A DNA stretch of 64,000 nucleotides from Prostheceraeus crozeri (Eukaryota > Platyhelminthes > Polycladida > Euryleptidae): positions 248,001 through 312,000 of the forward strand of contig CAJQUW010005758.1 of the NCBI GenBank assembly GCA_907163375.1. Reading direction: 5' to 3'. The position numbers and the translations under genes are program-made. Below the pieces are notes generated by a model. That model saw only the letters and a list, made by a program, of their open reading frames with translations, was not told the DNA's origin and made no database searches. Below, one piece after another: positions 33,452-51,174 of this stretch. How positions within the stretch are numbered: position 1 is the stretch's first letter; every line of letters starts with the position of its first letter.

Positions 33452-33968
33452 GGTCTTGTTGTTATTGGATTCTGTACCATCCACACTGTGCACAATGCAT
33501 TCAGAGCAGCTGTTCAAAAGTATGGACTGGAATGTGAGGAACTTGCTATTGATCTGTACTATTTCTTCAAAATATCGTCTTGTCGATGAGAAGATTTTGA
33601 TCAAGTTCAAGTGGACTTAGATTTAGATGAAAATGGTTTCATTAGATACGCGCAATCAAGGTGGTTGACGTTGTTGGACGCCCTTATCAAAATTCGGGAC
33701 AAATTGACTGCACTAAAGAAGTACTTTTTGGAAGTGGTTCCATCCTCAAAAGGCGGAGTCCTGTCGACAGCAAGGTATAAGCGTATTTGTCAGAAACTAA
33801 GAAATGAAAAATTGCTTGTTCTACTCCATTTTCTCATTTGTGTGAAACCGCTTTTTGATAAATATCTCATCGTCTGTCAAACAGAAGGCCCCTTGATACA
33901 TTATCTATATCCTTCTATGTGTGATTTGATAAAGTCTGTCTTGTTCCGCTTTCAAAACCAGAGTTATG
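33452..33968 (+). pseudogene. hAT transposase, middle part, left of the Polinton
   Basis: Reads KGLVVIGFCTIHTVHNAFRA, YYFFKISSCR, an in-frame TGA at 33587-33589, then DENGFIRYAQSRWLTLLDAL, matching the catalytic RNase-H-like region of this hAT family (CxxH...HNAF; SRWLTL). The TGA replaces a position likely to be Arg (CGA), a CpG-type transition. At 33969 the frame is cut by the Polinton; the next codons resume at 50108 in the same phase, so the empty site can be recognised exactly. Confidence 0.8.
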
Positions 33969-33974
33969 TAAAAG
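33969..33974. repeat. Polinton target-site duplication (left copy)
   Basis: TAAAAG, repeated at 50108-50113. A 6 bp duplication is the rule for Polintons. Confidence 0.93.
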
Positions 33975-34480
33975 AGTAGTATATAGTGTGACATCCGGCG
34001 CGACGCTTCGCTTCGCTTCGCTTGCGCCGGATGTCACACTTTTGCGGGTTTTTTCAAAAATCAAAAAATCAAAATTTCAAAAATTTAGGTAGACTTCAAA
34101 TTTCACGTGGCCGAAGGCCGAAGGGGCGAAAATTTAGGTAGTGACAAATTTTCAAAAAAATCAAAATTTCAAAAATTTAGCCGGTCTCAAATTTTTCAAA
34201 ATCTCAAAATTTGAGAATTACAATTTTCACCCTTAAAATCATGACCGTTCCAGGACACCGAAAATCATAAAAGTTAAGAATCTCAAAATTTGAGAATTAC
34301 AATTTTCTCGCTTAAATCATGACCGTTCCAGGACACCGAAAATCATAAAAGTTGAGAATTTCAAATTCATGAATTTTATCCATCTTTCAGGTTTTCAAAA
34401 TATATCATGTGACTAAAAATATTTCTTTAAAAATGGAAGAAACAAAAGTGGAAGAAACCGCAAGAATATATCCTTCGTTT
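33975..34480. repeat. Polinton left terminal inverted repeat
   Basis: About 506 bp matching 49613-50107 inverted. Near the outer end is a 16-17 bp palindrome (GTGTGACATCCGGCGC ... GCGCCGGATGTCACAC) whose loop is a CTTCG pentamer run. Inside, a block with ATGACCGTTCCAGGACACCG is present twice in tandem. Similarity to the right end, with a deletion, continues to about 34560 because the repeat includes the start of a gene (next entry). Confidence 0.93.
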
Positions 34481-34560
34481 TCTCAATTAAAAACAAGTGA
34501 AATGGTTCTCAATTATTATTAAGATTAGAGCATTATGATAAATTAAGAAGACGCAATTAT
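34434..34560 (+). pseudogene. Truncated left-end copy of the right-end membrane-protein gene
   Basis: Starts with the same TTTAAAAATGGAAGAAACAA context and first codons (MEETKVEETARIYPS) as the gene at 48979-49674, then after a deletion and frame change matches its SQLLLRLEHY region. It decays before the membrane segments. It shows that the inverted repeats once reached into this gene at both ends. Confidence 0.8.
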
Positions 34561-35283
34561 TACTTAGACATTCTTCGTTTTGTATTCCCAACATTATTTA
34601 AAGTACAAATTGTGTGAACTAGAAGATCATTGTAACTCATAAACTCAAAATTATTCAATGAACCCGTACACTGGCTGATAATTGAAGAGAGAGAAACATC
34701 TAGCAGCTTTCCCCTAAAATTATCGTGCTATCTCTTGTCATTTCAATTTACTCATCGGTAAACTTTTGGCATTTCAACTTACGCGTGCGTAAAGTTTTGA
34801 CATTTCAATTTACCCCTACGTAAATTATTTTCAGAATCTGTTTTCAAAATCTATTTTCAAAGTCTGTTTTCAAATTCAGTTTTAGAAATCGATTTGCAAA
34901 ATTCATTTAGCGTTTGCCAAACACATACGGGTAGTAAAGTACTTCCCATTGTGAAGACATGAATAGATTAAGCACATAAGAGTGCATTGACAATAAATGC
35001 AAATGACAATAAAATTCTTCTTGTGAACTCAGAACGCATAAACGCCGATATGCGGGTTAGTTGGCAATTTTAAACAATCATTTTAACGATGAAACATATT
35101 TTACAAATGAAGTTCATGAAGAAAATGGAAATATATAAAACAATATAGATTAGAATAATTATAATATAATCATTTCAAAATCGAATAAGTAGTAAGGAAA
35201 GACATCATTATGGAACAGTTTTAAATCAATACCCCCTCCCTTCTGTCTTCTAGGGGTCCCTTAAGAAATTTTTTTATTATAAA
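34561..35283. other. Polinton left non-coding region with hairpins
   Basis: No gene. At 34735-34825 three tandem units each carry a short palindrome (TTTACTCATCGGTAAA, TTACGCGTGCGTAA, TTTACCCCTACGTAAA) separated by CATTTCAA. A TTTTCAAA(A/G)TCTG-type repeat follows. This could be a regulatory or replication region upstream of the protease gene. Confidence 0.6.
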
Positions 35284-35739
35284 ATGAGCAACATAAAGGA
35301 GTTTTTTAAATTATATGGAACGCAAACCACGACAAATTTCGACCAAAAGAAAATCGCAAATGAATTAGGAATAAAGAATTTTCATGTTCTACTGAGAGGC
35401 GAATTACAATTCCTAAAAAATAGACCAACAGGAACCTTCAGTTCCCGGAACAAAGTTCAAACTGTAAATTTCATAACAAATCTTCATACGTCAGATGAAA
35501 AAGGTGTACATTGGTCAGCAGGACAAAGAAATATAAACTGTTCTAATTATTATTTTGACTCATACGGACTTCCACCTACGAATGAAGTAAGAGAAATACT
35601 TGGCAATGGAATTTATAATACGTTTCAAATTCAAAAACCGGGAACTACTTATTGTGGTCAATTATGTCTTTATGTTTTATTGAAATTACAGGAAGGAGTA
35701 CCATTTCTAGATATTATGTTTGAATTGAACGAAACGTAG
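35284..35739 (+). CDS. Adenain-like cysteine protease (maturation protease)
   Basis: 151 residues, intact. Catalytic residues sit in the adenain order: His76 (GVHWSA), Asp92 (YYFDSYGLPP), Gln117 (oxyanion hole) and Cys124 (TTYCGQLCLYVL), with the usual seven-residue step from Gln to Cys. In Polintons and adenoviruses this enzyme trims capsid and core proteins during virion maturation. It is one of only two + strand genes and converges with the integrase (35-base gap). The start follows ATTATAAAATG, the shared start motif of this element. The frame is clean, unlike the polymerase or capsid genes. Confidence 0.9.
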   Translation: MSNIKEFFKLYGTQTTTNFDQKKIANELGIKNFHVLLRGELQFLKNRPTGTFSSRNKVQTVNFITNLHTSDEKGVHWSAGQRNINCSNYYFDSYGLPPTNEVREILGNGIYNTFQIQKPGTTYCGQLCLYVLLKLQEGVPFLDIMFELNET

Positions 35740-35773
35740 GTTCTATGGCTACGCCTAATGAAAATAATGATAA

Positions 35774-36712
35774 TTAAAAATCAGTTCGTTGTAATTCATT
35801 TTGATAAAATCGGCCTCTGATATTTTCATCATCTAAATCTTTGATTTCGTAAGTAAACGGATAAGTTTGATTTATTTTGCAAACTTCAAATATTTCTTTA
35901 GTCCAATAGCCAACGAAGCCTTTTTCAAATTTATTCTTATATTTAAATATTCTAACTCTATCTCCAATTTTAAATTTCGGCTTAAGTTTCTGCAAATTCG
36001 GATTACTCTCATTCGAATAATTATTCTCGAATATTTTTTTTCTTATGAAATCAGGGTCGTCAGAAGCATTCTTTGGAGTTTCTTCAATACCAGAATGAAC
36101 TTTATTATTGTACTCTTCTACAACTCCTGGTAATATCTTCAACCATTTCTGATTTCTTTGCTCAGTAAATTTCTTGAATAATTTATTTTTTAACGTCCGA
36201 TTGAATCTTTCTATCACTACGGCCTTCCCTGCATTTTCAGTTGAATAAACAGTTTCAAATAGTGGCTGAACGTTTCGGTTATAAAATTCCGACCCTTTAT
36301 CAACAAACAATTTTTTTGGCTTTCTCTTACTTTCTTTAAAGATTTCTTCAAACGCATATTTAACTGAAAGACCACTTTTATTTTTTAAAGGCTTTACCCA
36401 AGCGTATCGTGTATATAAATCTATAACGGTCAATGCGTATTTGTAGTCCCTTTCATTCGGCATATGAATAAGATCAGCACTCCAAATATCATCTTTATTA
36501 AATACTTTTACTTTCAATAAATATTTAGGCTTTCTGTATTCCCTATGAATTTCGGACGCGTAGGTTCGAGCGTTGTTCTCAGACAGCTTTGCTGTCGTTT
36601 CATTTAAACCCTGGCCGAATAATATTTTAGCTTGTAAAGCTTTCTTAACAAACATTCTTTCAATTTTTTCTCTAAAGGAAGGATTTTGAATACTATCTAA
36701 TTCTTGAATCAT
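35774..36712 (-). CDS. Polinton integrase (RVE family) in frame with a PLA2-like region
   Basis: From the first Met (36712) 312 residues; the same frame is open without a stop from 36901. The catalytic core shows Asp80 (IWSADLIHM), Asp138 (LFVDKGSEF) and Glu168 (VVIERFNRTLK). The 29 residues between the second Asp and the Glu are fewer than the usual 35, so a small deletion is possible. A C-terminal chromodomain-like segment follows (KFKIGDRVRIFKYKN ... GYWTKEIFEV). It would join excised element DNA to host DNA. Residues 1-36 belong to the PLA2-like domain, so the two activities share one frame. Confidence 0.9.
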   Translation of the reverse strand: MIQELDSIQNPSFREKIERMFVKKALQAKILFGQGLNETTAKLSENNARTYASEIHREYRKPKYLLKVKVFNKDDIWSADLIHMPNERDYKYALTVIDLYTRYAWVKPLKNKSGLSVKYAFEEIFKESKRKPKKLFVDKGSEFYNRNVQPLFETVYSTENAGKAVVIERFNRTLKNKLFKKFTEQRNQKWLKILPGVVEEYNNKVHSGIEETPKNASDDPDFIRKKIFENNYSNESNPNLQKLKPKFKIGDRVRIFKYKNKFEKGFVGYWTKEIFEVCKINQTYPFTYEIKDLDDENIRGRFYQNELQRTDF

Positions 36713-37064
36713 CTTCTTATCAGCTACATGTCGAGAACTTAGGTCATGATTTCGATAAGCTAAATCATGCCTGTAAGCTGCGGCATCTACTCTATTTATC
36801 GGTTCTTCACCTGGTTTCGGATTATTATTCTCATCTAGTCTTATATCTAATCGAGTTCCTGGACCGGTATATGAATGACCAGGAAGATGTTTTTCTTTCG
36901 ACTATTTACTCCAAATAAAGCCAGGAAAGTTTTCTAATGTTTTTTTGTATGTCACCTCCAATATGCTGACAATTTGAGTTTTTATTTTTGTTTAATAGAT
37001 AATTTAATAAATCTAAATTAGCAATTTTTAATTTAATTAAATGTTCGGAATTTGTAGAATTCAT
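36605..37064 (-). pseudogene. Phospholipase-A2-like domain, frame broken
   Basis: The - strand frame 36901-36605 reads GHSYTGPGTRLDIRLD and RVDAAAYRHDLAYRNHD: a calcium-loop YxGPGTxLD and a catalytic HDxAY, the pattern of parvovirus VP1-type PLA2 domains used by capsids to breach membranes. A gene start with the element's motif (TTTTAAAATG, ATG 37064) lies upstream. The frame from it must change within a 7-base A run (36940-36946), and an in-frame TAG at 36902-36904 follows. The C-terminal end of the domain continues without a break into the integrase. Confidence 0.75.
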
Positions 37065-37147
37065 TTTAAAAGATAAAATAAATGTTTTACCTAATAGAAC
37101 CAAAGGTTCTGAGGCTTTAGCCGATCGGACCAAAGGTCCTGAGGTTA
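37065..37147. repeat. GC-rich palindromes between two Polinton genes
   Basis: At 37102-37145 in AT-rich surroundings: GGCTTTAGCC, CCGATCGG and GGACCAAAGGTCC. Related sequence is at 39840-39892. Confidence 0.75.
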
Positions 37148-37630
37148 TTACCGAATCATACTAGGACTTAGATATATTCCAGAACCATCTTTAGTTTCTT
37201 TAATTTCAATTAAATCATCAACATTGTGGAGAATATTTTTAAGAACTCGTTTTCCTTCATCAACTAATTTTAATTTACTAATAAAATTATCTACTACTCC
37301 TTCACCCCTAGCAACTTTCTCTAACTCTCTGTTATGACGTTTTTGTTCTTCTAATGCTGCCTTCTCTGATTTATTTTTATTTACTGCTTGGACAATACCA
37401 GCTGTCCCACCTGCAACACTTCCTGCAGCTGCTATGCCTCCTATTATTAGTGGAATTAATGGGAGAATCCCGCCATTCTTTTCTTCTTGTAATTGAATAT
37501 TCTCTATCATTGGTTTACTTATGTAATACTTTTTTTTGTTAATCGTAATAGTTTTAGGGGTATTTTTGTCAACAATATTACGTATTTTTAATTCAACAGT
37601 TTTATTATTATTACTTTTCGCTTGCGACAT
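37148..37630 (-). CDS. Small virion-type protein with a Gly/Ala-rich hydrophobic segment
   Basis: 160 residues from ATG 37630 (context TTAAAAATG), intact. Residues about 54-85 (GGILPLIPLIIGGIAAAG then SVAGGTAGIV) form a hydrophobic, possibly membrane-active helix, followed by a basic, charged helix (KSEKAALEEQKRHNRELE). This layout resembles the adenovirus pX/core-type small proteins reported from adintoviruses. A core or minor virion role is inferred, not proven. It lies between the PLA2/integrase block and the capsid gene. Confidence 0.6.
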   Translation of the reverse strand: MSQAKSNNNKTVELKIRNIVDKNTPKTITINKKKYYISKPMIENIQLQEEKNGGILPLIPLIIGGIAAAGSVAGGTAGIVQAVNKNKSEKAALEEQKRHNRELEKVARGEGVVDNFISKLKLVDEGKRVLKNILHNVDDLIEIKETKDGSGIYLSPSMIR

Positions 37631-37777
37631 TTTTAATAAAAAAATTTTAAGTTATCAAAAATTTTAATCTATTCTAGTTATGAAAAAATTTTAAGTTATC
37701 AAAAATTTTTAATCTATTCTAGTTATCAAAATTTTAAGTTATGAAAAAAAATTAATTAATCGACAAAGTCTTGGGCT

Positions 37778-39111
37778 TTAACCTATCCTAGCCATCTTTC
37801 CATTAAGAATTTCAATTGAATATTTTACATCTTCTAGCAATAAACCATAAGCCATCAATGAAGTTGTGGAATCTTTCTTTTCAATATTAATTGTTACATC
37901 ACAACCAGTCTTGATAATATCTTCAGATTGTGCACTTAAATCGAAACAGAAAACAGGATATAAATGTCTCCAATCTCCAGGAGTTAATTGTGGTTCAACT
38001 CCAAATTCTATACAAAGATTTCGATAAGAATCATATCCTTCCATAAATTGATTATTGGTATCATCGAATCTTAATGGATCAATTGGATATCGGGTTTGAT
38101 TTAATGAAACTTGTAAACTTCGAATTGTATTAATATGGAAGAGATTATTGTTCTTATCAAAACTTGGAGAATTATTTCTTTGAAAAGTTAGTAGTAAATA
38201 TCTTGGTGTATTCGCAGTTCTAGTAAAATGCCAGTTAAATCTTTGTTCGGAAAAAGTTACTGAACTAGCAGTTCTCTTTAGAAAATTTACTGGAATTGGT
38301 TTGTTAGTATTTAATCTTTTTGCAATAGCTGTTTCAATCTCTAAACTAGGAGTAATATGCTTAATCCACCATTCAAGTCTATCAATTTTTAAATATGCTT
38401 TTTTCCAGTTTTACCAAAAAAGATTAATTCATTATTTACAGTGCGATGAATTATTAATTTGAACTTTAATTGATATGATATTTTATCATAATCTAAATAT
38501 CCGAATAATGGAGACAATGACCAATTTACTGTTTGCTTACTTTTCTTGTTAAACTCACGTCTTTCTTTATATGCATCATTATTTGTTTTATTTAAATGTT
38601 TTGCAATATTTTCTACATCTTTCGCAATTCCTGCTGCATCTGTTCCAGCGTGAGTTAAATCATCAACAATTATACCATCATTTGTATCAGGAAACCAACC
38701 TTCGATTTCATACTTTTTATTATTTTCACCAATTGTTACAAATCTAAGCATTGTATCAATTACACCTGGAGAATCACTTATTGTTTCTATATTTTGAGTT
38801 GCAACATCTAAACGCATTTGTGTAAATAATCTTGGAAAGAAATTATTCTCTAGTGCAATATTATCGGTATCTGGTAATGGTGTTGTAAAATTGGCATCAC
38901 TATATAAAGAATATTCACAGTGTAAAAATGAATCAGGTAGATATAAATAACTTTGTTGATTATCAACTTCAAAAATTAAATCTCCTCCAGTATTTACTCT
39001 ACTGGAAGATCCGGAATTCATAGCAATTCTTATATAGTCATTCTTTTTTTGATTATAACTGACGAACGGAGGATCGTCTAATCTAAATTTATTTTCGATA
39101 AGCGAAGACAT
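37778..39111 (-). pseudogene. Major capsid protein (double jelly-roll), one frameshift
   Basis: ATG 39111 (TATAAAAATG) opens 240 residues ending at 38389. The conserved continuation is in another frame from about 38400 down to 37778. The change falls in a 6-base A run (38399-38404 on the + strand), so total length would be near 445 residues. Sequence features such as YLYLPDSFLHCEYSL, LFTQMRLDVATQ, and a C-terminal half rich in beta-strand patterns match Polinton/adintovirus hexon-like capsids that build the icosahedral shell. The single homopolymer break may be a true mutation, a sequencing error or, less likely, programmed slippage. Confidence 0.85.
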
Positions 39112-39218
39112 TTTTATAAAAAATAATTTGACTTTTTTGTTTTTCTCAGAGACAGAAAAAATGTTTACTAAAATATAATTTTAGAATTTTACCAAAAAAA
39201 ATTTTCTAAAACATAATT

Positions 39219-39785
39219 TTAGAATTTTGCTAGACCAGCTCCGCTACAGCTTTGCTGGTTAGACCGAAGGTTGCTATTAATACCATTGCCTCTTATTTCT
39301 TCAATTGAACGTTTTATGGCTACGCCTGATTTCTTCTTATGTTTACTATCAGACGGAGCTCCGCTCCTCAAGGTTTCCCCAACAACTATGTTAGCAATTT
39401 TGTTTTTTGTTTCCTCTGAAAGTTTTTTTAAATTTTTTAGTTCTTCAGAATCATTCCTAAGTTTACGAATAGCTTCTAGTTGTTTTAATTCGTTTTGAGA
39501 CTTGACAGCATTTGATATTGCACTAGCTGTACTACCTATAGCAGCTGCTCCTTTTGCAGCAGATGTAATCAAATCTTTATTATTTTTAATTAAGTTAACG
39601 ATACTTCCAATACCATAAAATATACCGGCTCCTTCTTTTTGGACGGCACCTGCGGTGCCTAGGAACTTTTGTGTTCCGACTGTTTCTACACTGTCATAAT
39701 GGTAAACAGATTTCATAGATGGTTCATGAGAAATTTTTTGATTTGAAGCAAAATGTTTAAGATTGTGTTTATAAATTATAGGCAT
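39219..39785 (-). CDS. Minor virion-type protein with amphipathic segment
   Basis: 188 residues from ATG 39785 (CTTAAAAAATG), intact. A Gly/Ala-rich stretch about residues 45-95 (AGIFYGIGSIVNLIKN, ITSAAKGAAAIGSTAS) could insert into membranes; a basic tail follows (SKHKKKSGVAIKRS) and the end is SGAGLAKF. The layout is like adenovirus pVI-type cement/lytic proteins. Its protease site, if any, was not identified. Part of the coding sequence is GC-rich palindromic insert (about 39232-39272 and 39351-39376). Function inferred from layout and neighbours. Confidence 0.5.
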   Translation of the reverse strand: MPIIYKHNLKHFASNQKISHEPSMKSVYHYDSVETVGTQKFLGTAGAVQKEGAGIFYGIGSIVNLIKNNKDLITSAAKGAAAIGSTASAISNAVKSQNELKQLEAIRKLRNDSEELKNLKKLSEETKNKIANIVVGETLRSGAPSDSKHKKKSGVAIKRSIEEIRGNGINSNLRSNQQSCSGAGLAKF

Positions 39786-39889
39786 TTTTTAAGATTAAAT
39801 TTGACATTTGGGAAAAAATATTTACGATTGGTTAGTAACCTGAGGACCTTTGGTCCGATCGGCTAAAGCCTCGAGGACCTTTGGTCCTT

Positions 39890-40777
39890 TTAAGATTTAC
39901 GTTTGTGAATGGACAACAACTTCGAGATAACTTTATTAATTGACTGTTGAACTTTATCTATTGCGTCAAGCAGCGTGTGATGTACTTTAATTTCTTTTCT
40001 ATTAACTTGCATTTTCTGCTGATTAATCTTCAATGCCGTTTTAAGAGCATTTAACTTAATTTTAAGAACATCTAATTGTCTTTTAACAGCATCTAACTGT
40101 TCTTTATTTTCTTTACAGTTTTCTTGTAAATTTTTCTTTAATTCATTTTCTAAATTGAGTTTAAGAGTTTTCATTTTATCAACTCTTTGATTAAGTGAGT
40201 TTACTTCATTTATTATTCTATTCATCTTTTTCATTTGTTGAGTAATTTTAGAACTCAATTCATCAACACTTTTTTGGAATGTAGTTTGTAACTGCTTTAA
40301 ATTTTTTTTAATTCTTTCAGGTAGTTTTTCTATTTCATCTTCTAATTGTTCTTTCAATAGTTGTATCTGATGTTTATTCTTAATGACTGCAGATTTTAAA
40401 TTTATAGAAAGTAATATTAAAATTTTTGATTGTTCTGAAATCTTTTTAAAAAGTTTTGCTATATCTGCTTCTAGCTCTCTATCCTTTTTATCAAGTTTTA
40501 ATAATTTTTCGTTTAATGATTTGTCATTAAGTTTTAGCAACTTTAATTCATTCATCAGTGGAACCAAAACATCGTTTATATATTTTTCTTTTAAGTCATT
40601 GATATGTGTATCAACATATTGTTTATTTGTTAACTCTGTATTTTGTTGCGGAAGAATAGAAAGATGCAATGGACCAGATAAAACGTCTCCAGTTTTCATA
40701 ATATAATTTTCTATTTCTATTTCTAATTCACGATTATTCGGGATATATGCACCTCCACCAACATTTGGTAACATCAT
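39890..40777 (-). CDS. Fibre-like coiled-coil protein
   Basis: 295 residues from ATG 40777 (GTTAAAAAATG), intact. Near the N-terminus KTGDVLSGPLHLSILPQQNT followed by TNKQYVDTHI has the form of the short repeat that anchors phage-type tail fibres. The remaining 240 residues are almost continuous heptad repeats rich in Lys, Leu and Gln (several coiled coils). No C-terminal knob is evident. A virion spike or fibre role is likely but unproven; a purely structural rod is the alternative. It diverges from the clamp-like gene, with a 48-base AT-only gap. Confidence 0.6.
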   Translation of the reverse strand: MMLPNVGGGAYIPNNRELEIEIENYIMKTGDVLSGPLHLSILPQQNTELTNKQYVDTHINDLKEKYINDVLVPLMNELKLLKLNDKSLNEKLLKLDKKDRELEADIAKLFKKISEQSKILILLSINLKSAVIKNKHQIQLLKEQLEDEIEKLPERIKKNLKQLQTTFQKSVDELSSKITQQMKKMNRIINEVNSLNQRVDKMKTLKLNLENELKKNLQENCKENKEQLDAVKRQLDVLKIKLNALKTALKINQQKMQVNRKEIKVHHTLLDAIDKVQQSINKVISKLLSIHKRKS

Positions 40778-40825
40778 TTTTTAACAATAAAAAAAATAAA
40801 ATTTTTTCTAATAAAAATAAAAAAA

Positions 40826-42148
40826 ATGGAAAAACCAAATTTAAAAAAATTATATTCGTCCGCATCATCCTGTTCTTCTTATTCGACGAGATCAACGGGA
40901 TTTGAAAATAAATGTTTTGATAATAATAATAATAATCCATGTATAGATGTTAATATTTTATTTCAATTACAAGCCGAAATATTTAGAGAACAGACTAAAG
41001 GTTTACCTTCTATAGAAACTAATTATTGTTTATTTCCAGGTGATCCATTTATAAAATTTATGGAGATTGTAAGTAAATATAATGATGTAGCTTATGTTGA
41101 ATTAAATGAAAATATGGTTATAATAGGTCATAATAACGTTTATGGTTTTATTAGAGCAGTGTTACCAATTAGTAATACTGAATGGATAGAAAATAAAATT
41201 ATTAATTATATCAATATTAAAGAATTAGTCAAAAAATTAAAATCTTTTTCGAAAGAAAAAATTAGATTATTTGTTGACGATCAAAATCAATATAACATTC
41301 ACATAGAGAGTAAAAAACATAATGAAGAATTATTATGTCAAGTTTATTATAGAGACACAATTTATAAACAAGAAACATTAGAAATGCCGCAAAGATATGA
41401 TGATGATACTTATATAGGATTATATTCAAACTTAAATATTAATTTGTTAAAATCTTATATAAATGGTTTAGCTCAACAAGAGAAAATTTATATGTGGACA
41501 ACACCTTATACTATTAACAATGTCCATAATCATAATCATAATAAACGAACTGAAGGTTCTAGGGCTTTGCCCGATCTTAAAGAATCTTATGATAATAATG
41601 ATGATAATAATATAGATGATGATAATATAGATGATGATTCTGAAACATCTGAAAATGGTGTAAATGGTAAAAAAGATTATAAAAATATTAGTAACTATAA
41701 AAATTTATCTAAATTTCATTTTCTTACAATTGAAAATAATAATGATGGTATAGTTGAAGATACTGTTAGACAACTATGTGTCGGGTCTACAAAATTTAAA
41801 TTAGGATTTACATCTAATCAATTTAAAATTTTATCATCTTTAATAAAAACTAAAAGTGATTCAGATTATGGTGGTGTTATTAAATTTTCCAAAAGAGATC
41901 AAAGACCAATATTTTTCTCTATTATATTATTATCAGATAAAAAATGTAATTTAGAGTTAGATATTCCAATAAGAGAATGGTATCCTATCAGGGAAAGGCA
42001 TCCTATACCAAAAAGTGTAATTGATGATGTTGAAGAATCAATTTATGATGATGATGAAGAATCAATTGATGATGATGATGAAGAATCAATAGTTAGTGAA
42101 AATAAATTTAAATTATCTTTTGATAAAACATTATATGATGAAACTTAA
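40826..42148 (+). CDS. Possible sliding-clamp-like protein (unproven)
   Basis: 440 residues from ATG 40826 (AATAAAAAAAATG). Two similar halves with alternating beta patterns (VAYVELNENMVIIGHNNVYG, then KIRLFVDDQNQYNIHIES; later FKLGFTSNQFKILSSLIK) are separated by an Asn/Asp-rich linker (NNDDNNIDDDNIDDD). The C-terminus is acidic. The pattern recalls PCNA-type clamps, which would serve the polymerase encoded next to it, but no diagnostic motif proves this. A GC-rich palindrome (GGGCTTTGCCC, about 41563-41573) is inserted in frame and encodes part of EGSRALPD. Intact frame. Confidence 0.4.
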   Translation: MEKPNLKKLYSSASSCSSYSTRSTGFENKCFDNNNNNPCIDVNILFQLQAEIFREQTKGLPSIETNYCLFPGDPFIKFMEIVSKYNDVAYVELNENMVIIGHNNVYGFIRAVLPISNTEWIENKIINYINIKELVKKLKSFSKEKIRLFVDDQNQYNIHIESKKHNEELLCQVYYRDTIYKQETLEMPQRYDDDTYIGLYSNLNINLLKSYINGLAQQEKIYMWTTPYTINNVHNHNHNKRTEGSRALPDLKESYDNNDDNNIDDDNIDDDSETSENGVNGKKDYKNISNYKNLSKFHFLTIENNNDGIVEDTVRQLCVGSTKFKLGFTSNQFKILSSLIKTKSDSDYGGVIKFSKRDQRPIFFSIILLSDKKCNLELDIPIREWYPIRERHPIPKSVIDDVEESIYDDDEESIDDDDEESIVSENKFKLSFDKTLYDET

Positions 42149-42322
42149 TAGAAAATACCAAAATATTCGATCAATATATTTTCATATGTAATAAGTTTTT
42201 AGATGTAATAAGTTTTTAGATGTAATAAGTTTTAGATGTAATAAGTTTTTAGATGTAATAAATTTTTAGATGTTATAAAATTTTTAGATGTAATAAATTT
42301 TTCAGATGTAATAAAAAAATTA
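42149..42322. repeat. Tandem repeat in a convergent Polinton intergenic region
   Basis: About eight copies of a 16-19 bp unit TTTTTAGATGTAATAAG between the converging clamp-like and polymerase genes. Could serve as a bidirectional 3'-end signal; contains several AATAA-like strings on both strands. Confidence 0.85.
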
Positions 42323-45300
42323 TTATTCCCACGTGTCATCATCATCACTTAAATTACTCTCACAGATGATTGTTTGAAATATTTCAGCTTGAATATCTTC
42401 TCCGTTATAAGGTAACATAATTTCATTTTCATCAGGTGCTTGACGTTTAAGAATATTTATTTGACCAGAAAATTTTTTTTCCTCAGTATTATTATTTTTA
42501 TCAGGAATACTAATTCCAGTTTCTAAAGATCTTTTCCATGGTTTATTAACTGTAGTCGATAATGTTTTCCCCGAATATAATTTTAGAAAATCTTCTACTT
42601 TTACTTTATCTTGTGAATATCCTTTGAATGTTTTCTTTTCACTAAGTCTCCCTTGCTCATCTACAGTAATACAGTATTTTACTTTAGGTGCAATAAACAT
42701 TGCAAAAATAATTCCACCATTTCCATAATCATTTTTCCCTTGACACAATTCTCCTCCAACATATCCAGCAGCGTCTAATTTATTAAAGAGCTCATTGGAA
42801 ATATATATTGAATCAGTATCTGTATAATGAATGTATTTTTCTTTGAAACCATTAATTTCTAAAATAAAATTATTCATGATTCTTCTAGAGTGAGAAAGAA
42901 TGAAAGAACCTAAGTGTGATGGCATGAATGACGTCTTCCCATCTTTTACAATATTAGTTTTGAGAAATTCATCATCTTCCATTTCTACTTTCGCTAAATA
43001 TTGTTCATCATTTAATTTTTCATAATCTTTTACTTCTTGAGTGAAATTTTTTCTCAATGTATTCTCATTCCATAAATGATATTTAGTGGTTATATCTTTT
43101 TGCACAGTTTTGCCATATAGCGAATTCATCAATAATTTAATTAACTCATCACCTACAGTATTTCCTTCTGTTTTATATCTTTTTCTCAAATTAAAAAGTT
43201 TTTCAATATAATTTCGAAATGGTGAAACTTGATAATTTTTTTCATAAATTATACCATCAGTGATATGTAAGATTTTTCCCCCACATCTAACAATTTCTTG
43301 TATGTCTATAGAAGTTAATACATCATAACATATACCATTTCTAAACCTGATTACTTTTACATGAGAATTATTATTTTGATTTTTAACTTATTTTTATTTT
43401 TTTGATCTTTTATAGGAACTGGTTGGAAAAACATATCATTCGGATATTGAAACACAACAGAGAATATTCCAGTTTTAGGTCTAAATGTTTGTGTATTAAA
43501 TTTATATACTATTTCCCGCTCTTCTTCTTGACGAAATTTTCTAGCTGATTCAGCTTTAGGGTATTCTGAATTTTCATCATACATAGCTGATGGATATAAA
43601 GATGTTGCATCAAAAGCCATTAGAAATTCATTTTTTTGTTCAAGTAGTTGATTTGAAATTTTCTTACAAATTTCAGTTTTATCTCATAAATCTCGATACT
43701 GTTTCATTAAATCTATTAAATTACTTCCAGGGGACAAAGCCCCACCAGCGTAGCGACCAAGGGACAAAGTCCCCCCAGCGCAGCGACCAGGTAAATACTG
43801 TTTTAATATTGGTAACAAGATGCTACAAAATGGCGATATGTATTTTCTTATGTTTGCTGAAACTCTTCCACCTTTAACAGATTTTCTAATATAATTTCTA
43901 GCCCATAAATCTATATGAGAATGAACATTTATATTGTCATTTTGTACGCTTTTCATCCAACCGTTAAATGTTAAAGCAGAGGATGTTAAATTAGTAGTTA
44001 TATCTTCACCAACTAAATCTCGCATAACATTATTATATTTGTAGATACAAAAAGCTAAAGAAAGAATATCGTTAACTAAATATGGTCTCCATTCATTTTC
44101 TTTTTCTTTATAATTTTCATGTGTTATGTCTCCAATTTCATAATTTAATTTACACACATTCGTAGGAATTTTAAAATTCTCACACCATTTAGAAAGACTT
44201 GTTTTTACATGTTGATAACTACATTTCATTATAATAGTTTGAAGTGCTAATTTACCTGACGGTGAATCTATTTTCATATTGTTTTTAAATCTAAAAGATT
44301 TTTGAATGTATCTACTAACACATTCAGTTGTATAAGGATTTTGTAATGAAGCAGTCAATATTCCTCTTGAAGTTTTAAGAGGCGGTTTAGATAATTTAAA
44401 ATTAGCTTTTATCGGAAAATAGGAATCAAAACCTGATGAATTGTGAGCTATTAAAGTTACTCTCGGATAATTAAATTTTCCAAGAGTTTTAAAAAATTGA
44501 TGGATCGGACATACGTCCTCTGGGTTTCCCCCGATCGGACATTCATCATCCTCAGTTCTCGTAAATATTTTCACACAATTTTGAAGTTTATTAAATTCTA
44601 ATTCAGTTAAATTATTATACTCATTAATCTGTTTTTTAAGTTTTTTAATTTCATCTTCATCTTTTGATCGTTTAATTTTAATCATATCACTTAACAAACG
44701 TGTTTCTAATTATTTCAATCTTTGTTTCGGTAAACAACATATAAATTTATTAAAATTAATAGCTCCTACAGCGTAAGGAATAGGATGAGCTGTTGAACAG
44801 TTAGGATCGGGAAAAGTTTCGAGATCCCAAATATATGTTGAACCATAGTCAATTTTTTTCTTTGTTATGATTTTATATGGACGCGTTGTTAGATTTTCAT
44901 CAGTAACTGTTTTATATATGGGTTTGAAATTATTTTCAATTTCTCTAATAGCTTTTAATTTATGAGATTTATTAATTAAACAATAGTGACCAATTGTTGA
45001 ACTTGCGTGAAAATAATTGTAATAAACATAATTATGAAACGTTTCAATTCCTCTAGGATTTAAATGACGATTGGCAGGACTATAATATTGAACGCATTCT
45101 CCAAAATATTTATTGAATTGAGAAAATTTGCAGTTTGACATTACTCCTGTTCTAGATGTGGCTTTCTCTTTATATGAAAAATTATTAAACATTTCTTTCA
45201 TCATTTCTCCTTGTTCTTCATTAAAACCTCGTAAAACATTATAACATTTAATAAAACAAAAATCTTCAGAAGGAATATACAATATTCACCGAAATATTCT

Positions 45301-45872
45301 TTGATTCTATATTTCATATTAATCCCTGCCCCTCTATGCGATCTTTGTACTAACTTCATTCCAAAATTTTCATATTTAATATTACCTGTAAAAATCCATT
45401 CGTTAGCATCGGATTTCTCATCCAGATTCGAAAACCATGTTTCAAATGATTTTTTATTATAGAAGGTTACGTAAAAATTTTGAATTATATTTTCCTGATC
45501 TTTAACAACTTTTCCAAGTAAATTAATAATTTTACCATTTGCTAAAAGTTTCCGCATATCATTTACTACATTAATAAAAGATACATTTTCATATTTAATT
45601 TCATTTGGATTAAATAAATTACATAAATCATCACCAAGCTCATCCTTAATTCTATCATCAAAAAAGATATCAGTAATAGGAGTTTCTAATATTTCTTTTG
45701 TTCCACTTTTCTGTTTTTTAATATTACGTCTAATACTACGCCTACTACGTTTCTGTTTTTTAATACGTTTACTACGTTTACTATGTTTAATTTGCGCATC
45801 AAACTCAGCAGTTTGTTTCTTGATTAATTCATCAATCCTAGACGTTTGTCCGAGAGACATTTCACGATTCAT
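42323..45872 (-). pseudogene. Protein-primed family B DNA polymerase, several breaks
   Basis: About 1180 codons from ATG 45872. In order: basic N-terminal region (RSKRIKKQKRSRRSIRR), exonuclease blocks YIWDLETFPD, AHNSSGFDSYF and YLVNDILSLA, then polymerase motif A (AFDATSLYPSAM), motif B (LLMNSLYGKT) and motif C (YTDTDSIYI). This is the replicative enzyme of Polintons, primed by a terminal protein. Breaks: a frameshift near 45285, in-frame TAA at 44710-44712, in-frame TGA at 43684-43686 and a frameshift near 43380-43400 in an A-rich run. GC-rich palindromic inserts at 43727-43791 and 44501-44548 add stretches such as CAGGTLSLGRYAGGALSPG. Not functional as sequenced. Confidence 0.92.
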
Positions 45873-45964
45873 ATTTTTTAAAAGAAAAAATGAATTTTTA
45901 CATAGAACCTCGGTTCCGTTTTTACATATACACAGGAATATGTAATTGATGTAATGTTTCTAAT

Positions 45965-46192
45965 TCATGTATTGTTATACGCCAAAAATACTCGGAAACT
46001 TCTTAAACAAAGTGGAAAGTCTTTTGTTTTAACACACGGTTTAATACCATGTTTTGTTTTATAATCTGTAACGAGCGCTACGTATTTATGATGATAATAA
46101 AATCTAACTTCTTTCTTCGAATTTACAGGATTTGTAGGATGACGATAATCTTTTAAAACTGGTACATGCTCTATCTTGTAAGCATTCAACAT
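45965..46192 (-). CDS. Small Polinton protein, unknown
   Basis: 75 residues (MLNAYKIEHVPVLKDY ... VRFYYHHKYVALVTDYKTK). Not recognised. Its start has the element's A-tract (TTAAAAAAAAATATG), which supports a real gene. The last 15 residues may be out of frame with the original end. Confidence 0.5.
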   Translation of the reverse strand: MLNAYKIEHVPVLKDYRHPTNPVNSKKEVRFYYHHKYVALVTDYKTKHGIKPCVKTKDFPLCLRSFRVFLAYNNT

Positions 46193-46273
46193 ATTTTTTT
46201 TTAATTTTTACTAACAAAAAATTTATAAGAAAAAATTATTCGATCACTCCGCGAAAATATTTTCTATCGACTT

Positions 46274-47040
46274 TCAGTCAGAGAACAATTGTTCGATAAC
46301 TCTATCATGAATTTTTTTATCAATATTAATTGTGATAAATCCATAATCTTTTGACCAAGCATTGTTACACGATTGTTTAAATTCATCTTTATTTCTTACA
46401 CATAAATCTCTTAACAAATCACTTAAGTTTCTTGCATTTATTTCAAATAGTATAAATATATTTGCATTCTTTCTAATAACACTTCCGTCTAATGAATACA
46501 TACTTTGTGTTAAATAAAAAACACTACAGTTATTATGTCTACCTCTTGTGAAATAATTTCTCTGAACTGACTGATTTCTATCATTAACACAATCATCAAA
46601 AATTACACAATGTTTCATTGTTTTATCTAGTTTACTAGGATCTTGCATATTACCACTATCATCTATGAATTGTATCTTTATATGCTTATTTTTATTGGTT
46701 TCCACTAACTGATTATTTTTTGCTGCTTCTTCACACCACGAACTTATTTCTTCTTCATCTTCAGATTTTTCATATTCTTTGAATAATGAAGCAATTGCTG
46801 TTTTTTTAAGATTATTTTCAAATCCATATTTTAAAAATTGATAGACGGGTTGTTCTGCCGTTGTTGTATAAATTATAAGATTGTTATAATCCAAAAAATT
46901 TGGAGTAGTTAAAATTTTAAATAATAGATATGTTTTTCCACATCCTGATCTTCCACAAATAACTGACAAAACTTTATTAGATAAATTTGGATGATGATTA
47001 AATTTAAGTTTTTTTTATTAAATGGAGGTAGTTCACTCAT
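46274..47040 (-). CDS. Packaging ATPase (A32/FtsK-HerA type), N-terminal frame break
   Basis: The frame to 46274 holds Walker A GRSGCGKT, Walker B HCVIFDD, a sensor-like FYLTQSMYSL and an arginine-rich RNYFTRGRHNN segment, the pattern of viral genome-packaging ATPases of Polintons, Mavirus and large DNA viruses. The natural start is ATG 47040 (ATTAAAAAATG, MSELPPF), about 24 codons upstream, but an 8-base A run (47009-47016) lies between and puts it out of frame with the Walker region. Everything from Walker A onward is open. Works with the capsid proteins to fill virions. Confidence 0.88.
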
Positions 47041-47123
47041 TTTTTAATAAAAAAAATTATTTTTATTTTATTTTTATTTTTAAAGAAGAAGAAAATTAAA
47101 CTTCTCTAGCTTCGCGTAGGAGT

Positions 47124-47913
47124 TTATATCTCCCGAACCAAAAGATCTATCATAATCTCTTCACCTCCAAAATTTATTTCTTGTCCTTTTTCATCAGTGA
47201 TTCTAATGTTAATGTTGTTAATAGTTTTTCTTGTAATAGGGAAATATATTAATGTTTGTGGAAATACATTTAATCTATAACCAATGGGTACAGTAAAAGC
47301 TGGAAAACTGAATATTAAATTTGACAATTTACCATTTATATATCCTCCTTCAATAATGTCACAATGTACAACAATTGAATTTATTTCAGTTATTTTTGGA
47401 ATCTTCTCACCTAAATGATAACCTTGACTATAGGTTTGTTTATTAAATCCTAATAGCTTTGACAATGATCTATCATGATTAAAATCAACTTGATGATTTT
47501 CGTCTAAAGTAAGAGAAAATTTATTGACTGCCGGTTCAACTGCAAAATGTAATTGTTTCTTATCTTTAGATGGTATACCTAAATGTCTCTTAATTTCATT
47601 TGATATTGATTCAACTTCGTAAGAACCAGGAAGAAAAGTTAATATTTTCCATGTTTTGCCTTTATCAGTAGAATATCTAAATTGATCATTCACATCTTTT
47701 ATAACATTTTGAATAGTGTTAAATGTAGAGAAACTAGTCAATGCAATTTGATAATTTTTATTTTGTTCCAAATGTAGAATGGGTTCTAAATTACAAGTGT
47801 GTGATGAAGTAGTTGTTATAATTTTTAACGTCGTACTAAATTTTTATGAACCCAAAATCTCTGTCAAGTTTTCTAAATGATTATTAATTTTGTCTAAATC
47901 TGCTGAACACATT
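47124..47913 (-). CDS. Penton-like minor capsid protein, start region disturbed
   Basis: The open frame gives 215 residues from codon 47771 (TTG, not a true start): NYQIALTSFSTFNTIQNV, FRYSTDKGKTWKI, LPGSYEVESISNEI, VDFNHDRSLSKLLGF, HCDIIEGGYINGKLSN, YRLNVFPQTLIYFPI. This is the single-jelly-roll penton homologue of Polintons that fills the capsid vertices. The frame is open up to a TAA near 47843 with no ATG. The nearest start with the element's motif is ATG 47913 (CTAAAAAATG), in another frame. So the 5' end is broken, or 47913 begins a separate short peptide. Confidence 0.8.
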
Positions 47914-47934
47914 TTTTAGTTAAAATTTTGAATA

Positions 47935-48029
47935 AATATTATAGATAAAAATCGTAGATAAAAATCATAGATAAAAATCATAGATAAAAATCATAGATAA
48001 AAATCATAAATAAAAATCATAGATAAAAA
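47935..48029. repeat. Tandem ATAGATAAAAATC repeat
   Basis: About six units of ATAGATAAAAATC(A/G)T between two Polinton genes. Simple repeat; possible 3'-end region of the gene at 48030-48857. Confidence 0.85.
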
Positions 48030-48857
48030 TTAGAAACAACATATTTCAGCTACACTTTTATAATCCTCTTCATTTAGAATCTTCTTTTCTAACAGTCTTT
48101 TCAATATAGCATGAATTTCATTGAAACTAGAATTATGTCCTTCTTTTATTGCAGATATTAAAATATTTAATCTATTTAGTAATTCTTGTGGATCATCTGG
48201 TAAAAATATGGTTGTTTCTATTTTCTGTTTTTCAGATAAACCTTTTCCTACTTTAACTCCCGTTGATAATAAATTTTCTAATTGTTTATAACGTCTAAGA
48301 GATTTTACTGCACCAACTCTATCTAACATAGCTTTATATTTTATGAGATCTTCTACAGCATAATTATTTAAATCTGCTCCTCTTAAAAGATTAACAAAAT
48401 TTCTATCTAAATTAAAAGGAGATTTATCTGGTGAAAAAATTAAACCTCGAAAAGGTTGTGGAAATATTTCTTTTTGTCCGAGATAAAATCTAGGTATTGT
48501 TTTTCCATCTATAAATGAAATAGAATGTTCAAATTGCATAGATTTTGGTAATTTCTTATTAATGTTTGATTCTAGTAATCCATAGTCATCTAATATAGTT
48601 TTGTGCTCTGGATCTGTTATATCAATTTGTTTATCATTATTTGTAAGTTCTTCTTCAAGAGTTTTAAATGGTTTCATAGTTTTTTCAAAATCAGTTTTTA
48701 CTTGCTCGGTTTGCTGCATTTTTTCAAACATATCAGATTGAATACCAGCTTTTATCATTCTATGTTGAAGATGATTTTCTTTCATAATATTTCTTTGTTT
48801 TATTAACTCTTCTAATTGTTTTATTCTTTTAAAATTATCAGCTCTAATTTTATCCAT
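48030..48857 (-). CDS. Conserved Polinton-type protein of unknown function
   Basis: 275 residues from ATG 48857 (TTTTAAAAATG), intact. N-terminal half is helical and charged (RIKQLEELIKQRNIMKENH), the middle has FIDGKTIPRFYLGQKEIFP, and the C-terminal domain has FLPDDPQELLNRLNILISA then FNEIHAILKRLLEKKILN. A similar C-terminal layout (short helical domain ending in a Leu-rich helix) recurs in Polinton-like elements of many animals. A structural or core role is possible because it sits among capsid genes. Confidence 0.5.
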   Translation of the reverse strand: MDKIRADNFKRIKQLEELIKQRNIMKENHLQHRMIKAGIQSDMFEKMQQTEQVKTDFEKTMKPFKTLEEELTNNDKQIDITDPEHKTILDDYGLLESNINKKLPKSMQFEHSISFIDGKTIPRFYLGQKEIFPQPFRGLIFSPDKSPFNLDRNFVNLLRGADLNNYAVEDLIKYKAMLDRVGAVKSLRRYKQLENLLSTGVKVGKGLSEKQKIETTIFLPDDPQELLNRLNILISAIKEGHNSSFNEIHAILKRLLEKKILNEEDYKSVAEICCF

Positions 48858-48978
48858 TTTTAAAATATAATATTTGAATTTTGTGGTAACATTGGAATAC
48901 AGCAAAAACATTTTACTGAACAAATTATTTTTTTATTGCTTTGTTGTCTGGCATCTTTTCGTTTAAAGTTTTCTCGTT

Positions 48979-49674
48979 TTAAGTTTTGTTTAATAAAGTT
49001 TTGCTTAAATTTTCGCTGAAAGTTTTTAGCTCTTCTAAAAAAAATTTGTCATTTTCTTCATTAGAAATTTTACCATCACTAGAAATTTTGCCATCCTTTT
49101 TATTTTTATCATCAACTTTTTCGGACTGTAATTGAAAGGTTTGATTTACTTCATTAGCTATTTGATCAAATTTTTCAATCTCATCTAACGTAATAACATT
49201 ATCATCACATACTCTTTGAAAGTAGTAATGTAGTTTATCATAGACTTTTTTAATATGTAAATGCTTAGTTTTTAATGATTTTCGTTTCTTAGTTATTAAA
49301 GATTTATCTAACATTGTAACAAGTGAAGTTGCAAAAACACCCGTACCTGTTAAAGCTGTAGCAACAACAGGAATTACTAAAACACCTGAAGATATAACAA
49401 TTGTCAAAGCACCTAAACTTATTGTTAAGAATATGCCAATTCCTTGTGTTACATTCTTAACTTTGCTCCATCTCTTTCTTAATTTTTTATAATGCTCTAA
49501 TCTTAATAATAATTGAGATTCCTTATCTTTCATATAACGTACTCTATCTTTGTGCTTTTCTTTATTCATTTTTTCAATGTCCATTAAAGTAGAACTACGT
49601 TCATATGATAACGAAGGATATATTCTTGCGGTTTCTTCCATTTCTGAAGTTCCTTCCACTTTTGTTTCTTCCAT
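48979..49674 (-). CDS. Predicted membrane protein overlapping the right inverted repeat
   Basis: 231 residues from ATG 49674 (TCTTTAAAAATG). A basic N-terminal helix (SQLLLRLEHYKKLRKRW) precedes a long hydrophobic stretch (GIGIFLTISLGALTIVISSG, VLVIPVVATALTGTGVFATS) that would span a membrane about twice. The C-terminal half is charged and helical. The first codons lie inside the terminal repeat, and a truncated copy is at the other end. Function unknown; position next to virion genes and the membrane segments suggest an envelope or inner-membrane component, which is inference. Intact frame. Confidence 0.6.
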   Translation of the reverse strand: MEETKVEGTSEMEETARIYPSLSYERSSTLMDIEKMNKEKHKDRVRYMKDKESQLLLRLEHYKKLRKRWSKVKNVTQGIGIFLTISLGALTIVISSGVLVIPVVATALTGTGVFATSLVTMLDKSLITKKRKSLKTKHLHIKKVYDKLHYYFQRVCDDNVITLDEIEKFDQIANEVNQTFQLQSEKVDDKNKKDGKISSDGKISNEENDKFFLEELKTFSENLSKTLLNKT

Positions 49675-50107
49675 TTTTAAAGAAATATTTTTAGTCACAT
49701 GTTATATTTTAAAAACCTGAAAGATAGATAAAATTCATGAATTTGAAATTCTCAACTTTTATGATTTTCGGTGTCCTGGAACGGTCATGATTTAAGCGAG
49801 AAAATTGTAATTCTCAAATTTTGAGATTCTTAACTTTTATGATTTTTCGGTGTCCTGGAACGGTCATGATTTTAAGGGTGAAAATTGTAATTCTCAAATT
49901 TTGAGATTTTGAAAAATTTGAAAAATTGGGTATTTTTAAAAACGCTTAAATTTTCGGCCTTCGGCCACGTGAAATTTGAAGTCTACCTAAATTTTTGAAA
50001 TTTTTGAAATTTTGATTTTTTGAAAAAACCCGCAAAAGTGTGACATCCGGCGCAAGCGAAGCGAAGCAAAGCGAAGCGTCGCGCCGGATGTCACACTATA
50101 TACTACT
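49613..50107. repeat. Polinton right terminal inverted repeat
   Basis: About 495 bp, inverted match to 33975-34480. It carries the same subterminal palindrome around GGCGCAAGCGAAGCG...CGCGCC, with CGAAG pentamers one of which is changed (AGCAAAGCG). Its inner end includes the first codons of the membrane-protein gene. Confidence 0.93.
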
Positions 50108-50113
50108 TAAAAG
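50108..50113. repeat. Polinton target-site duplication (right copy)
   Basis: TAAAAG, identical to 33969-33974. Confidence 0.93.
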
Positions 50114-51174
50114 AAAACTCAAAGAAGTTGAAATCAATCGATGTGTCACAGAATCATTTGGCTAATGAAGATATTGAAATCGGACATGCAGTCAGAGACG
50201 CGATTGAGAAGGTCGAATCGAAGTCGAAGGATGAAGTCATGAAACAGATACTGTCGTTCTACCAAACTGCATCGCAGTACTTGATCGATAGACTTCCACA
50301 TGATAACAAAATACTTCGAGCCCTCCGCGTACTACATCCAAAAGAACAATCCAACAAGAAAGGATGCCGCTATATCAAAATCATAGCAGAAGCGATGCCT
50401 TTTTTCAAAGATGACGACATCGTGAAAATCATCGACGAATGGAAATTGTACGGTGAAGAAAAAGTTAAGTCAGACATTCATGAAATCCGCATTGATGAAT
50501 TCTGGTCTCAGATACTAGAACATGAATTAGTAAGTGGAAGAAAGAAATACCCGAATCTTTCCCGTGTCGTAAAAGCAGCTCTCACATTGGCTCACAGCAA
50601 TGCCGACTCAGAAAGGGGACTTTCAGTTAATAAATGATTGCTTGGTACGGATAGAACAGCGCTTTCTGCAAAATCTGTAATCGGAATAAGAGCATGTAAA
50701 GACACTGTCCGATCATTTGATGGCATTACAAACGTTCCCATCACAAAAGACCTTATCAGCGTGGCGAGGGCATCTTCGAAGGTGTATCAACAGGAATTAG
50801 AGGAAGAAAGGAAAAAGGCGGAAAAACTTAAACAGGAAAAGAAAGAACGCGAAGAAAAAGAAATTCAAGCAGAGAAGGAACACAATGAAAAAATAGAAAA
50901 AATGGACGCGCAAACATGTCTTATTGCGAAAGACGAAGAAAACATTAACGTTGAAACGTCGAAAGCCAATCTTCTATTAAAGGATGCACAAACCCGTCTC
51001 GATGAAAGCATAAAAAAGAATGATATGGATGGCATCAGTATAGCATCAGATCTTTTGCGATTGGCAAAAGAAAAAATCGAAACATCCGCAAAGAAGCAAC
51101 TTGAATTACAGAATAAAAAGCGGCAGCTCATGACAACTTACCACGAAATGACAATAAAGAAAAAAAGACTGTAA
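50108..51174 (+). pseudogene. hAT transposase, C-terminal part, right of the Polinton
   Basis: Continues the frame interrupted at 33969. It reads AMPFFKDDDIVKIIDEWKLY, AALTLAHSNADSERGLSVNK (the hAT C-terminal dimerisation block), an in-frame TGA at 50635-50637, then TDRTALSAKSVIGIRACKD and a long Lys/Glu coiled coil (EEERKKAEKLKQEKKERE) to 51174. The TGA sits where a basic residue is expected (CGA to TGA). The long coiled-coil tail after the hAT block is unusual. Confidence 0.82.

Follow-up and report, generated by a model that had tools for sequence, protein, structure and literature searches.

A decayed Polinton of a very large family in the genome of the polyclad Prostheceraeus crozeri

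The genome of the polyclad flatworm Prostheceraeus crozeri carries a very large family of Polinton (Maverick) elements. One of them lies at positions 33975 to 50107 of the stretch of 64,000 nucleotides (nt) analysed here (contig CAJQUW010005758.1, positions 248,001 to 312,000; hereafter the window). It is very probable that this copy is a decayed Polinton, inserted into a hAT transposase gene by its integrase with a staggered cut of 6 bp, and that its family most likely multiplies by a virus-like cycle. This reading draws on the ends of the element, on the number of its sister copies and on the selection acting on their genes, those for virion proteins included.

Ends, insertion site and number of copies

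Inspection of the sequence places the start of the element at an AG and its finish at a CT, for a total of 16,133 bp. The hexamer TAAAAG is perfectly duplicated on either side and the terminal inverted repeats (TIRs) align over 492 nt with 89% identity, several of their inner arms being 96-100% complementary. The exact termini, the duplication and inverted repeats of about 0.5 kb had been put forward in the original prediction, and all are borne out. G+C content per 2-kb step is 0.34-0.44 in the flanks versus 0.24-0.31 in the element interior. The bounds of the element and its insertion site are the following.

33590-51174, plus strand: hAT transposase locus split by the element (33590-33974 on the left, further pieces on the right up to 51174), from the below-cut-off PF05699 match and the junction frame
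33969-33974, no strand: left target-site duplication TAAAAG, identical to the right copy
33975-34467, plus strand: left TIR, from alignment and hairpin
49640-50107, minus strand: right TIR with the same terminal hairpin, from alignment and hairpin
50108-50113, no strand: right target-site duplication TAAAAG, from the sequence

When the element and one duplication are removed, the hAT frame is restored at the reconstructed empty site as an open frame of 302 amino acids that spans the junction. Its right part has a weak match to the hAT dimerisation domain (PF05699, E=0.0038, 17.4 bits, below the cut-off of 21.4), and together the frame and the match argue that the element lies inside one hAT transposase gene. 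The flank between 2576 and 28057 holds further transposons, with reverse transcriptases and mariner/Tc1-like and pogo/Tc5-like transposases. An Rfam scan of the window returned nothing at gathering scores.

Exact matches to the 24-nt terminus number 2,210 in the genome (2,048,925,868 bases searched in 14,165 contigs), against 0 for the control, which gives at least 1,105 loci if there are two termini per locus. Sister copies, which the original prediction had proposed to look for, are thus present in very large number. The first 100 terminus places include 31 adjacent plus/minus pairs within 60 kb, with a median spacing of 17,245 bp (range 13.3-42.7 kb, two over 30 kb). Extrapolation from these places, taken in contig order and not at random, puts the elements bounded by exact termini on both sides at about 690 and the loci with one or both at about 1,500, equivalent to some 0.6-1.3% of the genome. 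In a genome search with the ATPase of the element, the best 150 of 15,735 first-look candidates, and so the most similar ones, are all 98-100% identical in amino acids, and 148 of the 150 have no internal stop.

Twenty pairs were sampled, namely the first 20 of the 31 in contig order with four of 20-43 kb omitted. Sixteen are flanked by perfect 6-bp duplications and two by duplications with one mismatch, one (L037/L038) is itself an inverted duplication together with its flank, and one has no duplication; the flanking hexamers of all 20 are different. A single 6-bp duplication would arise by chance about once in 4,096 cases; that of the window is not fortuitous because 16 of these 20 pairs with the same terminus also have a perfect one, at hexamers that differ throughout. 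Duplicated haplotypes, segmental copies or assembly errors might also produce a high copy number. The division of the assembly into so many contigs and the L037/L038 pair, an inverted duplication reaching 300 nt into the flank, lend some colour to this explanation. A segmental copy would, however, repeat flank and hexamer together, which is at odds with 20 different hexamers and 16 perfect duplications, and an artefact of this kind is very improbable. Ends and flank of L037/L038 are mutually inverted over 1,025 nt at 99.8%, as in a palindromic duplication or an assembly fold-back.

Protist genomes with more Maverick copies are known. By comparison, the median copy number of vertebrate Mavericks is 8, the highest number named being 287 (axolotl, all defective), with at most 38 intact per genome (Barreat and Katzourakis, PMC8097293).

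The ends of the family share a terminal hairpin. In the window it has a perfect 16-bp stem located 11 nt from the tip (arms 33986-34001 and 34024-34039) and a loop of GCTTC-type pentamers, and it is mirrored at the right end near 50038-50096; the folding of the window end has z = -5.35 relative to shuffles. A perfect hairpin 11 nt from the tip is found in 42 of 42 ends (the 20 pairs and the window), with stems of 16-18 bp and loops of 13-52 nt of GCTTC-type pentamers, in a count where the first arm belonged to the search pattern, the second arm did not, and the two ends of L037/L038 are not independent. Median TIR identity is 94.8% within elements (18 elements, L037/L038 included) versus 82.2% between elements (35 comparisons), after removal of two of the 20 within-element cases and 25 of the 60 between-element ones, whose alignments were absent or no longer than 300 nt. 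Such likeness within an element would follow from replication in which one end serves as template for the other. Between genes, at 37111-37160 and 39823-39886, the window also has inverted repeats of about 50 nt with 90% complementarity.

Genes of the element and their decay

The element has the AG...CT ends with 6-bp duplication, the TIRs and the 15-20 kb size of Polintons. The proposed Polinton identity is further supported by its gene products. Pfam profiles match the frames for the double-jelly-roll major capsid protein (MCP; PF21738, 49.8 bits, cut-off 27), the A32/FtsK-type ATPase (PF04665, 24.8 bits, cut-off 22.8), the DNA polymerase B (PolB; PF03175 in three pieces, one of them below cut-off alone) and the RVE integrase with its DDE residues (PF00665). 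Fold comparison identifies a single-jelly-roll penton whose best match in the PDB is the Mavirus penton. The expectation of a full gene set holds in part: the named genes are all present, but the capsid gene is split in two frames, the polymerase consists of five open pieces between 42323 and 45959, the start of the phospholipase A2 (PLA2)-integrase gene stands in another frame, the penton lacks the N-terminus present in relatives of about 260 amino acids, and the protease is recognised by motif only. Judged from its reading frames, the window copy is a dead, decayed Polinton, because its capsid, polymerase and first part of the PLA2-integrase frames are broken. The open reading frames (ORFs) are listed below, some with their ratio of non-synonymous to synonymous substitution rates (dN/dS).

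35254-35739, plus strand: candidate adenain-type cysteine protease; ordered His, Asp, Gln and Cys motifs read by eye
35774-36901, minus strand: PLA2-integrase fusion; PLA2-like PF08398 followed by RVE integrase PF00665 and strands at the C-terminus; flexible linker with GxG at residues 96-98
36906-37160, minus strand: open piece, broken PLA2-integrase N-terminus; its second half matches the N-terminus of the closest relative, P0001 (E=1.4e-05, 120 proteins searched)
37148-37651, minus strand: small hydrophobic protein; weak adenovirus pX-like match (PF05829, E=0.009, 16.3 bits, below the cut-off of 25)
37778-38410, minus strand: MCP, second part, double jelly roll (PF21738, E=3.6e-13)
38389-39180, minus strand: MCP, first part, in a different frame and overlapping the second part; from sister copies
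39219-39788, minus strand: small virion-like protein of no assigned family; no reliable match
39890-40780, minus strand: coiled-coil protein, fibre-like motif near the N-terminus (by eye); weak matches only
40823-42148, plus strand: protein of 441 amino acids; dN/dS 0.094 in the first 240 codons, 0.54 in the Asp-rich second half
42323-45285, minus strand: PolB, broken in pieces 42323-43387, 43357-43683, 43684-44709 and 44710-45285; PF03175 in the first three
45201-45959, minus strand: probable N-terminal part of PolB in another frame, assigned by position and motif; DNA match in 19 of 20 copies
45965-46207, minus strand: protein of 80 amino acids, no assigned function; dN/dS 0.25
46274-47014, minus strand: A32/FtsK-type packaging ATPase (PF04665, above cut-off)
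47124-47843, minus strand: penton, single jelly roll; fold match
48030-48932, minus strand: protein of no assigned function; 9 of 17 copies intact, dN/dS 0.36
48979-49701, minus strand: protein containing a hydrophobic segment; 12 of 19 copies intact, dN/dS 0.25

Sister copies preserve these genes to different degrees. The ATPase is present in all 20 sampled copies and intact in 14. Capsid pieces were fetched for 15 of the 20 copies; the second capsid part is found in each of the 15, and in seven the capsid is encoded by a single open frame of 455-472 amino acids. Stops and frameshifts are absent from the penton in 18 of 22 copies and from the PLA2-integrase in five of the seven that cover at least 70% of it. 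The His, Asp, Gln and Cys of the putative protease are invariant in the window and in nine aligned copies (nine of 11 stop-free ones were taken), with Ser in place of the Gly beside the Cys in one copy. Profile and PDB searches gave no relevant match for this protein, and its identity is proposed from motif order and invariance. Some copies have a short extra stretch near the Asp motif that is absent from others (protease frames of L025, L036 and L024).

Open frames of more than 700 amino acids run to the piece end beside the ATPase in four of 20 pieces. One of them, on the opposite strand (L058:1226-4000, minus; 1 of 20 copies), codes according to Pfam for a divergent PolB with an endonuclease VII match, while the remaining three are taken as PolB from their DNA match. 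The ATPase next to the divergent polymerase is 98.4% identical to that of the window, an arrangement that points to module exchange. A weak endonuclease VII match is likewise described for the PolB of the Sf Mavericks of Spodoptera frugiperda (PMC5803895).

The original prediction spoke of a Polinton/adintovirus-type element. Its Polinton part stands; any adintovirus membership is tentative. Adintoviruses are defined by an OTU-like PolB N-terminus, hexon recognition by BLASTp and an integrase C-terminal chromodomain (PMC11071296); Pfam gave no match to an OTU-like domain in the two PolB N-terminal pieces (44710-45285 and 45201-45959) and none to a chromodomain in the integrase, whose model has strands at residues 315-372. 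The penton resembles models from MELD viruses and adintoviruses, among others.

The remaining frames are less well placed. The protein search found no relatives of the 441-amino-acid ORF, which was fetched for six copies; a guess by eye that it might be a sliding clamp was dropped, as profile and protein searches gave it no support. At its expected place one of the six copies has a different frame of 458 amino acids on the other strand (L093:228-1601, minus). The ORF at 37148 was found in 3 of 15 copies, an uninformative figure as the fetched pieces mostly stop short of it. The coiled-coil protein has weak tail-protein matches only, and its N-terminus, read by eye, resembles a repeat motif of phage tail fibres. 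Coiled-coil surface proteins and membrane-active virion proteins are described as classes in adintoviruses and MELD viruses (PMC11071296). A penton 99% identical to that of the window (P0121) is found on a 1,112-bp JGI contig, which may stem from host DNA or from particles in some sample.

Selection and the proposed life cycle

Selection was assessed on copies chosen by their exact ends, regardless of gene similarity. The dN/dS values were obtained by the Nei-Gojobori method as ratios of means over all pairs; copies with frame-shifting indels were excluded from them and retained in the count of shared and private changes. The ratio is 0.108 for the ATPase (17 sequences; an earlier value of 0.03 was set aside, its sample having been chosen by protein similarity), 0.145 for the PLA2-integrase (6 sequences; 0.164 for PLA2 alone and 0.151 for the integrase part alone), 0.187 for the protease (8 sequences), 0.192 and 0.203 for the first and second MCP parts (14 sequences each) and 0.219 for the penton (22 sequences, seven of them chosen by ATPase similarity, none of which enters the shared/private count).

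Changes private to a copy are expected to be nearer neutral than shared ones, because an inserted copy should drift. Shared changes are more often silent, with 174 non-synonymous to 246 synonymous (N/S) versus 426 to 257 among private changes (odds ratio 0.43, pooled p=1.5e-11), and stop changes number 3 shared versus 30 private. Analysed individually, the first capsid part (p=1.2e-4), the penton (p=1.2e-3) and the ATPase show a significant contrast. In these three genes each copy has about 0.3-0.6% private changes per site. At an insect-like mutation rate of about 3e-9 per generation, this would translate, very roughly, into no more than some one to two million generations.

Selection on the capsid genes of relatives suggests that the family spreads by making particles, and not only by jumping. 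The element would be transcribed and PolB would copy its linear DNA from the ends, probably by protein priming, which would account for the likeness of the TIRs within an element. Next, the ATPase would pack the DNA into a shell of double-jelly-roll capsid protein and penton, and the PLA2-integrase would insert it elsewhere, in the same cell or, upon reinfection, in another; its PLA2 may serve in the crossing of membranes. We infer virion assembly, as did the original prediction, now with evidence for selection on the virion genes. Vertebrate Mavericks have the same integrase, PolB and capsid genes, TIRs, 6-bp duplications and purifying selection on core genes, and their virus-like propagation was argued from selection (PMC8097293). 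The same source regards the question of whether Polintons are viruses or transposons as undecided, since no particle was seen.

Several points weigh against a virus-like cycle. Exact termini favour young copies; dN/dS reaches 0.33-0.61 in the PolB pieces, which display no shared/private contrast; and this contrast is not significant for the second capsid part (p=0.18), the PLA2-integrase (p=0.088), the protease and the two right-hand ORFs. Pooled counts take changes as independent despite the relatedness of copies. With an N/S of 1.66, lower than the value of about 3 expected under neutrality, private changes are not all post-insertion drift. The protease is free of stops and frameshifts in 5 of 15 copies only. 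Five scans of viral contigs in IMG/VR found no relative, an absence that, together with the many sampled copies that are broken, would fit a transposon multiplying only inside the cell, with no particles and its capsid genes kept as passengers. Against this reading, dN/dS values of MCP, penton and protease are close to that of the integrase, and the first MCP part and the penton, though not the second MCP part, each display the shared/private contrast by themselves. A purely intracellular transposon is thus an unlikely account, and multiplication by a virus-like cycle is preferred.

The PLA2-integrase fusion

The integrase is fused in one frame behind a parvovirus-type PLA2. A protein search with the fused frame retrieved 2,506 matches at E<=0.001; among the 120 matches listed, 97 have, by our own count, both Pfam domains. 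The alignment covers both active sites in 106 of the 120, and among these the PLA2 His is kept in all and the Asp in 105, while the integrase acidic residues are kept in 106, 106 and 104. A supposed 6-residue deletion in the window integrase (D-x29-E) was rejected, close relatives having the same spacing. The structure model of the fusion has a mean predicted local distance difference test score (pLDDT) of 88.8 and a predicted template modelling score of 0.65. Its integrase is nearest to a MELD-virus integrase among viral models and to the foamy-virus integrase in the PDB, and its PLA2 part resembles an entomopoxvirus PLA2-like protein. The virophage Mavirus has a similar penton fold and RVE integrase model, and differs from the element, within the genes compared, by the PLA2-integrase fusion and the location of the latter in an animal genome.

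The literature searched, which mentions PLA2 genes and did not extend to the main 2021 adintovirus paper, contained no report of such a fusion. Polinton PLA2-like lipases are related to the parvovirus capsid PLA2, with a proposed role in entry, and the passage on them describes no integrase fusion (PMC4642659). Sf Mavericks have a parvovirus-like PLA2 protein, an integrase with C-terminal chromo domain and an adenain-like protease; their PLA2 is encoded by an ORF of its own, named CAP, and the search for a PY-type capsid found none (PMC5803895), whereas the element described here has PLA2 joined to the integrase and encodes a double-jelly-roll MCP. PLA2 and phospholipase terms are absent from the portion of the vertebrate Maverick text searched (PMC8097293).

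The junction of the two domains could be a processing site. A tentative and rather doubtful proposal is that the PLA2-integrase is a precursor carried in the particle and split by the protease of the element at the glycine motif, so that enzymes for opening membranes and for inserting DNA would arrive jointly, and that the family, equipped with this protein, grew into one of the largest animal Maverick amplifications known. Alternatively, with about even chances, the GxG does no more than cap the last PLA2 helix. It directly follows helix 76-95 in the model, and Gly98 is variable (kept in 84 of the 106 aligned relatives). The adenain consensus has Met, Ile or Leu at P4; at the junction 3 of 57 fit its strict form and P4 is mostly Lys, with Leu, among the five commonest residues listed, in 6 of 106, so that cleavage can only be proposed. 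A mere helix cap accounts less readily for Gly96, kept like Lys92 in 104 of 106 although the stretch after Gly98 varies from 0 to 73 residues, and for residues 96-105 being the sole segment between the domains with pLDDT below 50.

More than 2,000 exact termini of one family in one genome make the virus-versus-transposon question testable within one host, and this host would be a promising one in which to look for particles. The PLA2-integrase fusion, whose active sites nearly all of the aligned relatives preserve, is an unusual architecture that would predict an integrase travelling in the particle.

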